The translations under genes were made by a program, and so were the position numbers. 64,000 bases of DNA from Bacteroidota bacterium (GTDB lineage: Bacteria; Bacteroidota; Ignavibacteria; Tepidaquicellales; Tepidaquicellaceae), in the NCBI GenBank assembly GCA_018266895.1, contig JAFDZQ010000023.1, positions 1-64,000 of the forward strand. The letters are read 5' to 3'. Positions 18,930-44,846 of the stretch are shown here, in pieces. Position 1 is the first letter of the stretch, and the number at the start of each line of letters is the position of its first letter. The notes under the pieces are model-generated. The model was given only the letters and a program-made list of their open reading frames with translations, was not told the DNA's origin and ran no database searches.

Positions 18930-19003
18930 TCGGGATGGGCAGACTCGAACTGCCGGCCTCACGCCCCCCAGACGTGCGATCTAACCAACTGATCTACATC
19001 CCG
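18930..19003 (-). tRNA. tRNA-Pro (GGG anticodon)
   Basis: On the minus strand, acceptor CGGGATG pairs with CATCCCG and the discriminator is A. The anticodon arm CACGT-CTGGGGG-GCGTG gives anticodon GGG. The T arm has GTTCGAGTC. CCA is not encoded. radC starts 24 bp downstream. Confidence 0.95.
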
Positions 19004-40730: not shown

Positions 40731-41129
40731 ATGTCAATGACCGATCCAATAGCGGATTATTTAACAAGAGTAAGGAATTCACTGAAAGCAGGAAAAAAAA
40801 CTGTTGATATGCCTTATTCGAAATTCAAACACGCAATTAGCGAGATACTTAAAAAATCTTCTTTCATAGAGGATTTTAAAGTAATTGAAACTGAGGGAAA
40901 GTTTAAAATTCTTTCTATAAAACTTAAGTATAATGACGGCGAAAGCGTGATACTCGGATTAAAAAGGATCAGCAAGCCCGGAATAAGAAGGTACGTCAGC
41001 AATGAAGACATACCAAGGGTAAGAAACGGGCTGGGAATATCTATAGTTTCAACATCGAAGGGACTTTTAACAGATAAGGAAGCTAGGAAATTAAAAGTAG
41101 GCGGAGAAGTCGTCTGCGAAATTTGGTAA
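40731..41129 (+). CDS. rpsH: 30S ribosomal protein S8
   Basis: S8 binds central-domain 16S rRNA and often represses the spc operon. The 132 residues begin M-S-M-T-D-P-I-A-D-Y-L-T-R-V-R-N and end with G-G-E-V-V-C-E-I-W, as in the family. It has a good ribosome-binding site (AGGAG). Confidence 0.97.
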   Translation: MSMTDPIADYLTRVRNSLKAGKKTVDMPYSKFKHAISEILKKSSFIEDFKVIETEGKFKILSIKLKYNDGESVILGLKRISKPGIRRYVSNEDIPRVRNGLGISIVSTSKGLLTDKEARKLKVGGEVVCEIW

Positions 41130-41152
41130 TAAATTTTTAAAGTAAAAATTCA

Positions 41153-41692
41153 ATGAGCAGAATAGGAAAAAAACCGGTAATTATTACAGACAAGGTCAAA
41201 GTCAGCAAAAAGGATAACACGCTTGAAGTGACCGGACCGAAAGGAACTATGAAGATAGATGTTGTAAAAGGAGTTAATATTGATATAAGCGGAAATGAAC
41301 TAAATGTTACAAGAACGGATGATACTAAAAGAAACAGGGCATTGCACGGATTATACAGATCTTTGATTCACAATATGGTAACAGGAGTGAATGAAGGCTT
41401 TACAAAGAAACTTGAACTAGTAGGCATCGGATACAGGGCGGAATTAAAAGGCAAGAATCTTGTAATGATGCTCGGGTTTTCGCATCCAACAGTATTTGCT
41501 CCGCCTGCGGATATAACGATTGAAGTTCCGAATCCCAATTCCGTTTTAGTCAACGGCATAAGCAAGGAATTAGTCGGAATGGTGGCTGCAAAGATAAGAT
41601 CATTCAGAATTCCGGAGCCATATAAAGGAAAAGGAATTAAATATGAAAATGAAGTTGTAAGAAGAAAAGCAGGCAAAACTGCAGCAAAATAA
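41153..41692 (+). CDS. rplF: 50S ribosomal protein L6
   Basis: L6 lies near the factor-binding stalk. The sequence M-S-R-I-G-K-K-P-V opens the 179-residue protein and the C-terminal block P-E-P-Y-K-G-K-G-I-K-Y is diagnostic. Confidence 0.97.
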   Translation: MSRIGKKPVIITDKVKVSKKDNTLEVTGPKGTMKIDVVKGVNIDISGNELNVTRTDDTKRNRALHGLYRSLIHNMVTGVNEGFTKKLELVGIGYRAELKGKNLVMMLGFSHPTVFAPPADITIEVPNPNSVLVNGISKELVGMVAAKIRSFRIPEPYKGKGIKYENEVVRRKAGKTAAK

Positions 41693-41710
41693 AACCGATA
41701 AGAATTTTAT

Positions 41711-42082
41711 ATGAATCAAATACAAAAAAGTCAAAAAAGAAGAGCAAGAATCAGATATCAGATAAGAAAAAAACTCAGAGGTACTCCTGAAAGACCCAGA
41801 TTAGTAGTATACAGAAGTCTGGATCATATTTACGCTCAGCTGATAGATGATGTGAATGCCAGAACATTGCTGACTGTTTCAACTAAATCCAAAGATGTAA
41901 CTGATAAAATTTCGTCTGCAAAAGGCAAAATTGAAAAAAGTAAAATAGTAGGAAAGATTACGGCTGAAAAAGCTGTCTCGGGCAATATCAGCAGTGTCGT
42001 ATTTGACAGAAACGGATATTTATATCACGGAAGAGTAAAAGCTCTTGCCGACGGCGCCAGAGAAGGTGGTTTAAAGTTCTAA
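41711..42082 (+). CDS. rplR: 50S ribosomal protein L18
   Basis: L18 binds 5S rRNA with L5. The 123 residues include [19 protein letters not shown]-x-V-Y-R-S and the C-terminal [12 protein letters not shown]. Instead of rpsE, a tRNA-Gln gene follows. Confidence 0.97.
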
Positions 42083-42125
42083 ATATTATTAGTATATTAA
42101 AAATTGCAATAATATCCACATTTTC

Positions 42126-42196
42126 TCTCGGGTCGTCTAATGGCAGGACAGCGGCCTTTGGAGCCGTATGTGGAGGTTCGAATCCTCCCCTGAGAA
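42126..42196 (+). tRNA. tRNA-Gln (TTG anticodon) inside the ribosomal operon
   Basis: Acceptor TCTCGGG pairs with CCTGAGA (one G-U pair) and the discriminator is A. The anticodon loop CTTTGGA gives anticodon TTG. The T arm carries GGTTCGAATCC. CCA is not encoded. It is in the same direction as, and between, rplR and rpsE, so the mRNA must be cut on both sides of it if it is part of the operon. A small AT-rich inverted repeat (42083-42090 with 42108-42115) precedes it. Confidence 0.95.
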
Positions 42197-42229
42197 CAAA
42201 AAAACAGTATTTGAAAGAAACTAAAATCT

Positions 42230-42742
42230 ATGATAAGAAAAAAAAATTTTAAAGCAGGCGAACTGGAATTAAAGGAAAAGATGGTTCATATTGCCAGGGT
42301 AGCAAAAGTTGTAAAAGGCGGTCGAAGATTCAGTTTTTCTGCTGTAACAGTTGTCGGTGACGGTAAAGGGCATGTAGGAATAGGATTAGGAAAGGCAAAT
42401 GAAGTCACGGATTCTATAAAGAAGAGCGTTGATGATGCCAAAAAGAATGTAATTTCTGTACCTATTTCAAAAGGTACAATACCGCATGAAATTATAGGAA
42501 AATACGGTGCGGCAAAAGTTTTACTTAAACCGGCATCACCCGGTACAGGTATAATAGCAGGAGGCGGAGTAAGAGCGGTTCTTGAATCAGCAGGCATTCA
42601 GGATGTATTGACAAAGTTGTTGGGTTCATCCAATCCTCACAATGTAGTCAAAGCGACAATCAAAGCGCTTGTTTCACTGACTGATGCTAAATCAGTTGCT
42701 GACAGAAGAGGGATCTCGCTTTCAGAATTATTTTCAAATTAA
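42230..42742 (+). CDS. rpsE: 30S ribosomal protein S5
   Basis: S5 affects decoding accuracy and mRNA unwinding. The 170 residues contain the dsRBD-like N-terminal fold ([12 protein letters not shown]) and [12 protein letters not shown]. It lies 33 bp downstream of the embedded tRNA-Gln. Confidence 0.97.
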
Positions 42743-42760
42743 AATTATTTACCGGGAGTC

Positions 42761-42943
42761 ATGATAAAAATAACACAAACCAGAAGTATAATAGGAAGAT
42801 TAAAGAAGCAGAAATTAACTATTGAAGCACTGGGATTAGGCAGACCTAATTATTTTACTATAAAAAAGGATACTCCTCAGATACGCGGTATGATAAATGT
42901 AGTTAAGCATCTTGTAAAAGTAGAAGAAAACTACAAACAATAA
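42761..42943 (+). CDS. rpmD: 50S ribosomal protein L30
   Basis: A 60-residue L30 with [11 protein letters not shown] and L-G-L-G-R-P-N, the family marks. A 113-bp gap with a hairpin separates it from rplO. Confidence 0.95.
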
Positions 42944-42988
42944 TTTGATAAATTATTTTACTTTAATAAAAATTTAATAGTTCTTCAT

Positions 42989-43019
42989 ATTCCTTTGCTG
43001 TAAATATAAGCAAAGGAAT
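42989..43019 (+). terminator. Internal hairpin, possible attenuator, between rpmD and rplO
   Basis: An 11-bp perfect stem (42989-42999 with 43009-43019) closes a 9-nt loop and is followed by a short T-run. It looks like an intrinsic terminator, yet it lies within the operon and the genes after it depend on read-through or on an internal promoter. Confidence 0.6.
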
Positions 43020-43056
43020 TTTACATATTTGGAATAATAATTTAAGAAAATTTTTA

Positions 43057-43515
43057 ATGGACATACTAAGTAATTTAAAGTACGCTGAAGGTTCAAGGAA
43101 AAAAAGAAAAAGAGTCGGAAGAGGTCAGGGCTCGGGACACGGCGGGACTTCTACAAGAGGTCATAAAGGGCAGCATTCCAGATCGGGAGCAAAATTCAGA
43201 GCATGGTTTGAAGGCGGTCAGATGCCTTTACAGAGAAGAGTTCCTAAATTTGGTTTTAAAAATATAAACAGAGTTGAATTTGTCACTATAAATCTTAACG
43301 CAATTCAGGCATTTATAGACAAAGGAAAAATCAAGGAATTAAAGTTCGACAAAGAATATCTCCTGACAAACAATCTTATCAAAGGTAAAAACAAACCTTT
43401 AAAGATCCTTGGCAATGGTGATATAACATCAAAAGTAGAAATTACTGCAGATGCATTCAGCAAAACTGCAAAAGAAAAAATTGAAAAAGGCGGAGGAAAA
43501 GCAGTTACAATATGA
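43057..43515 (+). CDS. rplO: 50S ribosomal protein L15
   Basis: L15 joins late in 50S assembly. The 152-residue protein has the Gly/Arg-rich N-terminus ([14 protein letters not shown]) and F-E-G-G-Q-M-P-L. The stop overlaps the secY start by 4 bp. Confidence 0.97.
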
Positions 43516-44846
43516 GCGGATTCCTAGAAAGTTTCAGAAATATTTTTAAAATAGAGGAGTTAAGAAACAGACTTTTATTCACTCTTGCCATGCTGGTAGT
43601 AGTAAGGATAGGAGCGCATATTACTCTTCCGGGCATAGATGCTTCTTTACTCGCTGAAGCGCAAAAGAACCAGTCGGACAATACATTGTTTGGTCTGTAT
43701 GATATGTTTGTCGGCGGAGCATTTAAAAATGCTGCGATTTTTGCATTGGGAATAATGCCGTACATCAGCGCATCCATTATTATTCAGCTACTCGGAGCTG
43801 TCTTTCCGTATTTTCAGAAACTCCAGAAAGAAGGTGAAGACGGAAGAAAGAAGATCAATCAGCTTACAAGATTAGGAACCATTCCGGTTGCCGCATTGCA
43901 GGCATGGGGTGTAAGCGTACAGTTATCCAGCAGAAATGTAGGCGGTTTGGGAGTAGTAAGCCCTGATATTTCAGGAGCTTTTTTTACTATATCAACTGTA
44001 ATTATTCTTACTGCAGGAACTATCTTCATGATGTGGCTGGGAGAACAAATAACAGACAGAGGAATCGGAAACGGAATTTCACTCATTATATTCATTGGTA
44101 TTATAGACAGATTCCCGTATTCAGTATTTGACGAATATCAGATAATTGCTTCCGGCGCAAGGAATATACTTATTGAGCTTATATACATTGCCTGTTTTAT
44201 TCTTATAATTGCCGGAGTCATTGCAGTAACAGTTGCCACAAGAAAAATTCCCGTTCAGTATGCAAAAAGGGTTGTGGGAAGAAAAGTATTCGGTGGAGTC
44301 ACTCAATACATACCGATGAAAGTTAATTCTGCCGGTGTTATGCCTTTGATATTTGCGCAGTCAATTATGTTCATTCCGAGCACATTTCTTTCATTTTTCC
44401 CGGACAGTGAATTAATGCAGGGAATTGCAAAATATTTTGATTATTCAAGCTGGGTTTATTCTTCAGTATATGCTTTGCTGATAATATTCTTTACGTACTT
44501 TTATACTGCAATTGCATTTAATCCGAAAGACGTATCTGATAATATGAAGAAGCAGGGCGGATTTATACCTGGTGTAAGACCGGGTAAGCCGACATCAGAT
44601 TTTATTGATAACATTCTTACAAAAATTACTTTACCCGGCGCAATTTTTCTTGCAATCATTGCAATATTACCGACTTTTCTTACGAAATTAGGGGTTACAA
44701 CCGGTCTGGCATCATTTTTCGGAGGAACAAGTCTACTGATTATTGTAGGTGTTGCTCTTGATACATTGCAGCAGATAGAGTCACATCTTCTCATGAGACA
44801 TTATGACGGATTTATGAAGAGCGGTAAACTCAAATCAAGAAGGTAA
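43512..44846 (+). CDS. secY: Protein translocase subunit SecY
   Basis: SecY is the channel of the Sec translocon in the inner membrane. The 444 residues hold ten transmembrane helices. The signature [15 protein letters not shown] is at about residue 80, and the plug and cytosolic loops follow in order. Its ATG overlaps the rplO stop (ATGA), which implies translational coupling. Confidence 0.97.

Follow-up and report, generated by a model that had tools for sequence, protein, structure and literature searches.

In the analysed window, a 64,000-nucleotide stretch of contig JAFDZQ010000023.1, a tRNA gene lies inside the spc ribosomal protein operon, between rplR and rpsE and on the same (+) strand as both. 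The last gene 5' of this position (hereafter the slot), rplR, encodes L18 and occupies 41711–42082 (TIGR00060, 122.9 bits against a cut-off of 87.85), its stop codon being at 42080–42082, and the first gene 3' of it, rpsE, encodes S5 and extends from an ATG at 42230 to 42742 (TIGR01021, 221.3 bits against a cut-off of 164.05). The distal half of the operon continues on the + strand with rpmD (L30; 42761–42943, TIGR01308), rplO (L15; 43057–43515, TIGR01071) and secY (43512–44846, TIGR00967), and the genes around the slot, i.e., rplF, rpsH, rpmD, rplO, secY and map, all score above their NCBIfam cut-offs. The tRNA-Gln(UUG) itself (42126–42196) is separated from rplR by a 43-nt spacer (42083–42125), which would form the tRNA 5' leader in a read-through transcript, and from rpsE by a 33-nt linker (42197–42229), within which 3' processing would have to take place. 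A putative promoter, TTTAAA-N17-TATATT (42070–42098, +), overlaps the rplR stop codon and was recognized by a pattern scan, its fixed position and a position weight matrix (PWM).

The initial annotation of this DNA had proposed a complete tRNA-Gln(TTG) between rplR and rpsE on the same strand, which is borne out by both ARAGORN (tRNA-Gln, anticodon TTG, 42126–42197, +) and the Rfam model RF00005 (42126–42196, 62.7 bits, E 3.1e-11, cut-off 29). Inspection by eye places the discriminator A73 at 42196 and the next C at 42197, and the end coordinate originally given, 42196, is thus correct. The gene lacks an encoded CCA, the sequence 3' of A73 running C-A-A, and most of the tRNAs examined in this genome are likewise without one. 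The pair U1-A72, an identity element of tRNA-Gln, is present in the window tRNA and in the slot copies compared by eye, with the exception of L127 (A1-U72). The predicted fold of 42083–42229 retains the acceptor, D and T stems and shows additional pairs in the anticodon arm; 14 of 200 shuffles fold equally well.

A search for the same insertion in relatives, as suggested by the initial annotation, was found to be positive on a broad scale. The rpsE gene was located in 56 of the 59 genomes searched, including that of the window, and the rplR–rpsE junction was readable in 53, loci L030, L055 and L056 being left out since they stop short of it; 43 of these 53 genomes carry the slot tRNA. This occupancy is far beyond chance, and the arrangement is far more general than the initial annotation could know. 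The tRNA is present in all 27 genomes with a readable junction from the family of the window (f1), two further f1 genomes having no readable junction, in all twelve of a second family (f2), and in one genome each of f9, f10, f12 and f13. The slot is empty in the remaining ten (two each of f3 and f5, and one each of f4, f6, f7, f8, f11 and f14). When the slot tRNA of genome G055 was used as query against 41 genomes around G055, 33 were matched, and all 30 loci fetched (G055 included) hold a tRNA between rplR and rpsE, which adds f15, f16, f17 and f18; overall, the slot tRNA is present in ten family codes. Among 80 named genome records, 35 possess the slot tRNA and 45 do not, twelve of the 35 repeating f1 genomes and five more repeating genomes of the G055 search. 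The titles of the 35 carriers are Ignavibacteria, Ignavibacteriae, Ignavibacteriales, Melioribacteraceae, Chlorobi, Bacteroidetes/Bacteroidota and, once, Flavobacteriales, and within these 80 records the slot tRNA was found in none of the loci titled Marinimicrobia, Deltaproteobacteria, Spirochaetes, Chloroflexus, Cytophagales or Saprospiraceae. Some loci titled Ignavibacteriales or Ignavibacteriae (L107, L108, L109 and L111) are also without it. Among the named records, the S5 protein of the window is closest to that of an Ignavibacteria MAG (93% identity), which places the window in an Ignavibacteria genome.

On a quick tree of 121 loci, built from five ribosomal proteins (672 columns) and comprising 89 rows with the slot tRNA and 32 without, its presence and absence require at least five changes, as against 28.4 in shuffles. 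Because the well-supported branches force just one change, a history of one old gain with losses afterwards is possible. No published description of an spc operon with a tRNA in it, or of this Ignavibacteria slot, was found among the matches listed, which consisted of titles and abstract openings and covered few subscription papers.

By sequence comparison, the slot gene is a tRNA-Gln distinct from the ordinary type. In four slot-less relatives examined, a tRNA-Gln(UUG), which we take to be the ordinary bacterial form, is sited elsewhere in the genome and is approximately 70% identical to the slot gene over the gene. A 72-base query of this ordinary type, for which 71 or 72 of the 72 bases at no less than 86% identity were required as a match, identified such a gene in ten of 59 genomes, i.e., in nine of the ten verified slot-less genomes and in G057, whose junction is not readable; the tenth slot-less genome, G046, yields a best match of 72%. 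At the same threshold of at least 86% identity, this DNA search found an ordinary-type gene in none of the 43 slot genomes, in which the query returned no match, the slot gene, matches of 25–27 bases or, in G053, a 74% match over 66 bases. The two types seem to be mutually exclusive, which suggests that one probably replaced the other.

In the genome of the window, the slot tRNA gives a single DNA match, an ordinary-type tRNA-Gln was not found by DNA search, and one Gln is present among the 37 of 38 RF00005 hits for which the anticodon was read, the remaining hit (L093) being without an anticodon. The slot gene is probably the sole tRNA-Gln(UUG) of the cell, a status that is likely and short of proven, given a genome completeness of 92% and a tRNA search that overlooked one tRNA or more; the tRNA list derives from RF00005 hits and DNA searches, which lose some tRNAs. 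A tRNA-Pro(GGG) at 18930–19003 (−) of the window, for example, is detected by ARAGORN and by a local Rfam scan (61.1 bits) and is absent from the whole-window and whole-genome Rfam searches, illustrating that large Rfam scans lose real tRNAs. An origin of the slot tRNA from tRNA-Glu by anticodon change was considered and is unsupported, the closest other tRNA of the genome being an Arg tRNA (65%) and not Glu. With its acceptor stem removed, the G055 slot tRNA is closest to tRNA-Gln(CTG) (78%), ahead of Glu(TTC) (71%), Glu(CTC) (69%) and Asn (69%), and it is 70–75% identical to the ordinary tRNA-Gln.

Several individual slots deviate from the general pattern. Two f1 loci, L013 (genome G009) and L014 (G005), carry a tandem tRNA-Gln(TTG) and tRNA-Gln(CTG) between rplR and rpsE, a pair that looks like a local duplication with anticodon change. 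The G055 slot tRNA (L037/L122/L205, JAUQWO010000076, L037:1371–1442) has a tRNA-Gln body with the anticodon GTG, and its congeners G059 and G060 have TTG in the slot; G055 also encodes a separate tRNA-His and a tRNA-Gln(CTG), and a search for an ordinary tRNA-Gln(UUG) in it was negative. The GTG anticodon represents either a sequencing error or a real oddity. Elsewhere in the genome of the window (L094:45–135 and L064:566–640) there is a tRNA-like fragment in which the 3' end and the bases beyond it duplicate those of tRNA-Asp, a pattern resembling that produced when an element integrates at a tRNA.

As regards charging, the genome of the window scores above the cut-off for gatB and below it for glnS, from which an indirect charging route of the slot tRNA is inferred. 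Among seven f1 and f2 genomes tested, six (G000, the genome of the window, and G007, G010, G014, G029 and G032) show gatB and not glnS above the cut-off, and in G025 glnS is above it and gatB is not, so that the charging route seems to switch within the family. A tie between slot type and charging route was sought and none was seen in 24 genomes, glnS and gatB being scattered over both groups.

The initial annotation had stated that no terminator surrounds the tRNA, and indeed no terminator-like site is found in 41000–43200, where shuffles lead one to expect 1.2 (sd 1.3). Pattern and PWM scans of the 33-nt tRNA–rpsE linker detected neither a promoter-like nor a terminator-like site, and the best score within the 75 nt 5' of rpsE is −0.8 under a promoter model (PWM) derived from the upstream regions of 36 other tRNAs of the same genome. 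Given this short, terminator-free linker and this low score, it is very likely that polymerase passes through the tRNA to reach rpsE, and that the two genes share a transcript which must be cut. The anatomy of the locus gives good support to that part of the initial annotation which predicted an operon mRNA cut around the tRNA; extra initiation at a promoter-like box had not been foreseen.

In this box, the second hexamer (42093–42098) is located 10 nt 3' of the rplR stop and the first part lies inside the last rplR codons. Because the TTTAAA-N17-TATATT match alone is at chance level (five sites in the region on both strands, against 5.7 expected), the box carries weight through its fixed position: TAnnTT begins precisely 10 nt beyond the rplR stop codon in 22 of the 27 f1 loci, which are kin and do not amount to 22 independent events, and other offsets between −60 and 44 give at most 14, the length of the spacer being variable. 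The five f1 loci without the box are L002, L006, L013, L014 and L020; L002, from the single congener of the window that was searched, has TATACA at the box position. In four of these five, TTGAAA or TTGAAG is found close to the position of TTTAA in the others, and selection on a −35 is therefore not visible. Upstream of the slot tRNA, the median PWM score is 4.98 in f1, 0.67 in f2 and −0.96 in what we call the Melioribacteraceae-type loci, which form a 19-member clade of the 121-locus tree and of which some bear that title, and the f1 medians 5' of protein genes are 1.50 for rpsE, 0.76 for rplR and 1.48 for rpmD. In single-locus shuffle tests on promoter score, seven of 27 f1 loci pass at p ≤ 0.05. 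The other tRNAs of the genome are preceded by the motif TTGaA-N17-TAttTT, and TAT[AT]TT is enriched upstream of them (14 of 36; one of 300 shuffles was as high). The Bacteroidota −7 box TAnnTTTG was rejected as the local promoter consensus, as it is not enriched (two of 36 tRNAs; 94 of 300 shuffles as high).

Other lineages organize the flanks of the tRNA differently. The f2 loci (among L031–L046) exhibit a strongly conserved AT-rich block, which reads TTGTGGATTTTTATATTTTTTTTATATATATTTG in most of them, approximately 23–60 nt 5' of rpsE. This block, situated between the tRNA and rpsE (11 of the 12 f2 loci aligned), resembles a promoter and is possibly one for rpsE, but it is not singled out by the promoter model, under which one of the 11 scores at p ≤ 0.05. 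In the Melioribacteraceae-type loci the tRNA starts 3–22 nt (median 5) after the rplR stop, with 17 of 19 at 3–9 nt and 18 of 19 at 15 nt or less, spacers so short that a start for the tRNA within them is hardly possible.

With respect to processing, the genome of the window encodes an RNase P RNA (RF00010, 210.7 bits, G000:C56), and RNase E/G is above the cut-off in 12 of 13 genomes, that of the window included. RNase Z (TIGR02651) exceeds its cut-off in none of 30 genomes, again including that of the window, a weak basis for absence because five of 14 control genomes miss the same cut-off; the best match to this model in the genome of the window is a 255-amino acid protein, presumably another metallo-hydrolase. 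Given the weakness of that negative, RNase E/G together with trimming is put forward as a candidate for generating the tRNA 3' end. RNase P and RNase E are described as separating tRNAs from joint precursors in the available part of PMC3985628, and the available part of a B. subtilis RNase P depletion study (PMC10100781) holds nothing on a tRNA inside a ribosomal protein operon. The idea that a stabilizing hairpin generally caps the 3' end newly formed on the proximal mRNA was rejected, as spacer folds rarely beat shuffles: z < −2 is reached by five of 26 in f1, two of 12 in f2, none of 18 in f13 and one of 11 in the remaining loci, and not by the single Melioribacteraceae-type spacer long enough to be folded (0 of 1). 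Loci L221 (genome G095) and L138 have a perfect GCGTCATC...GATGACGC hairpin in the rplR–tRNA spacer just 5' of the tRNA (fold z of −4.0 in L221), which might, in that lineage, protect the 3' end that RNase P cleavage gives to the mRNA.

The reading that we favour, at a probability of roughly 0.6, is that a fixed, probably sole tRNA-Gln(UUG) is read within the spc transcript and cut out on both sides, a promoter having been added in most of f1. RNA polymerase would transcribe the tRNA as part of the ribosomal protein transcript, RNase P would generate the 5' end of the tRNA, and another nuclease, for which RNase E/G is a candidate, would cleave in the 33-nt linker 5' of rpsE. For each tRNA so made, the spc mRNA would fall into two pieces, a proximal one that ends after rplR and a distal one that begins just before rpsE. 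In most of f1, initiation shortly before the tRNA is probably possible as well, from the added promoter overlapping the rplR stop, so that tRNA-Gln and the distal genes could be made above the level of the proximal genes. In view of the conserved f1 box, the two halves of the operon may differ through extra initiation and not through processing alone, and a promoter before the tRNA would, in f1, be an equally good way as cutting to separate their levels. The promoter activity of the box, both cuts and any effect on levels are inferred.

The alternative closest to the initial annotation is that the spc transcript is the sole source of the tRNA and that any differences between the halves arise from RNase P and 3' cutting. 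Such a scheme suits the Melioribacteraceae-type loci, with their median spacer of 5 nt and median model score of −0.96, and the five of 27 f1 loci without the box, the congener of the window among them; against it stand the conserved box, whose place is fixed in 22 of the 27 f1 loci, and the conserved AT-rich block that f2 has instead between tRNA and rpsE, and we consider it rather unlikely. Less probable still is that the f1 box acts as an RNA signal, e.g., an AU-rich RNase E/G site preceding the tRNA, and not as a promoter. The box is indeed AU-rich and transcribed, RNase E/G is present, and the conserved stretch exceeds a bare −10, TAAATTT preceding the box, yet its 17-nt spacing to TTTAA, its likeness to the TTGaA-N17-TAttTT of other tRNAs and the enrichment of TAT[AT]TT before those tRNAs (14 of 36, matched by one of 300 shuffles) argue against it. 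Very improbable is an independent tRNA transcription unit, which the initial annotation had named as what would refute its proposal, with a strong promoter just before the tRNA and a terminator just after it. The first of these elements may have a counterpart in the conserved promoter-like box 5' of the tRNA (22 of 27 f1 loci, weak singly, absent in the congener); the other has none, as terminator-like sites in the window region number zero and rpsE has little room there for its own promoter. A terminator-like hairpin with a T run follows the tRNA in one of 27 f1 loci, L025, according to a loose script, but a stricter scan finds none there, nor does it in L015.

There is close to an even chance that the arrangement is a frozen accident, i.e., that a tRNA-Gln gene of a second kind came to lie in the operon, took the place of the ordinary one and then became impossible to lose, being expressed as a passenger and exerting no regulatory role on the operon. 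In its favour, the ordinary type is found in none of 43 slot genomes and in nine of ten verified slot-less ones, and other translation operons (tufB, secE) also hold tRNAs according to the available part of PMC8046335. Against it stand the retention of the slot throughout a large clade (at least five changes on the 121-row tree) even though the spacers have been rewired, and the promoter-like blocks, which precede the tRNA in f1 and follow it in f2. The boldest reading is speculative and on balance unlikely: a divergent or foreign tRNA-Gln inside the spc operon would have displaced the ordinary one and become the sole source of tRNA-Gln in the cell, glutamine decoding would be tied in a fixed ratio to ribosomal protein transcription, the RNase P cut would be a control point for S5, L30, L15 and SecY apart from the proximal proteins, and lineages would have added promoters upstream or downstream of the tRNA to tune it.

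Few bacterial gene strings are as conserved as the spc operon, whose ribosomal proteins are required in equimolar quantities. With a tRNA that is probably single-copy inside it, each tRNA-Gln would cost one cut of a ribosomal protein mRNA, or polymerase would have to restart there. In the Ignavibacteria, a large group of bacteria most of which are uncultured, the supply of tRNA-Gln is probably tied to ribosome production through one cut transcript, and the slot would offer a natural test both of ribosomal protein stoichiometry when the mRNA is cut and of the coupling of tRNA supply to ribosome output. Furthermore, it points to an essential tRNA gene having been cleanly replaced.

Among the systems with which the slot can be compared, the ordinary tRNA-Gln(UUG) of slot-less Ignavibacteria shares its anticodon and, in the four copies examined, U1-A72, yet has a different D arm, is located elsewhere in the genome and did not co-occur with the slot gene in the genomes searched. 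In mitochondrial tRNA punctuation, as set out in the available part of PMC10941002, tRNAs within a polycistronic transcript mark the points at which the RNAs are released by RNase P together with a 3' endonuclease. The Melioribacteraceae-type loci come near to this on the upstream side, with 3–9 nt from stop codon to tRNA in 17 of 19; unlike in mitochondria, the slot concerns one junction of one operon, is served by a bacterial RNase P with an RNA subunit and, in the window, is not flush with either reading frame, the linkers being 43 and 33 nt long. In the bacterial cases tufB, secE and secG-leuU the tRNAs lie at the operon edge, and one study has reportedly dealt with RNase P processing of the joint transcript of E. 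coli secG-leuU. The tufB operon holds four tRNA genes, and a tRNA-Trp belongs to the secE operon, where it lies between two operons (available part of PMC8046335). As in these mixed tRNA–mRNA operons (tufB, secE), a tRNA and genes for translation machinery proteins occur in one operon at the slot, the tRNA and its flanking protein genes being on the same strand with no terminator-like site between them. In contrast to tufB, secE and secG-leuU, the slot tRNA is internal to the spc operon, with a gene on each side; it is probably the sole tRNA-Gln(UUG), and it recurs across ten family codes.
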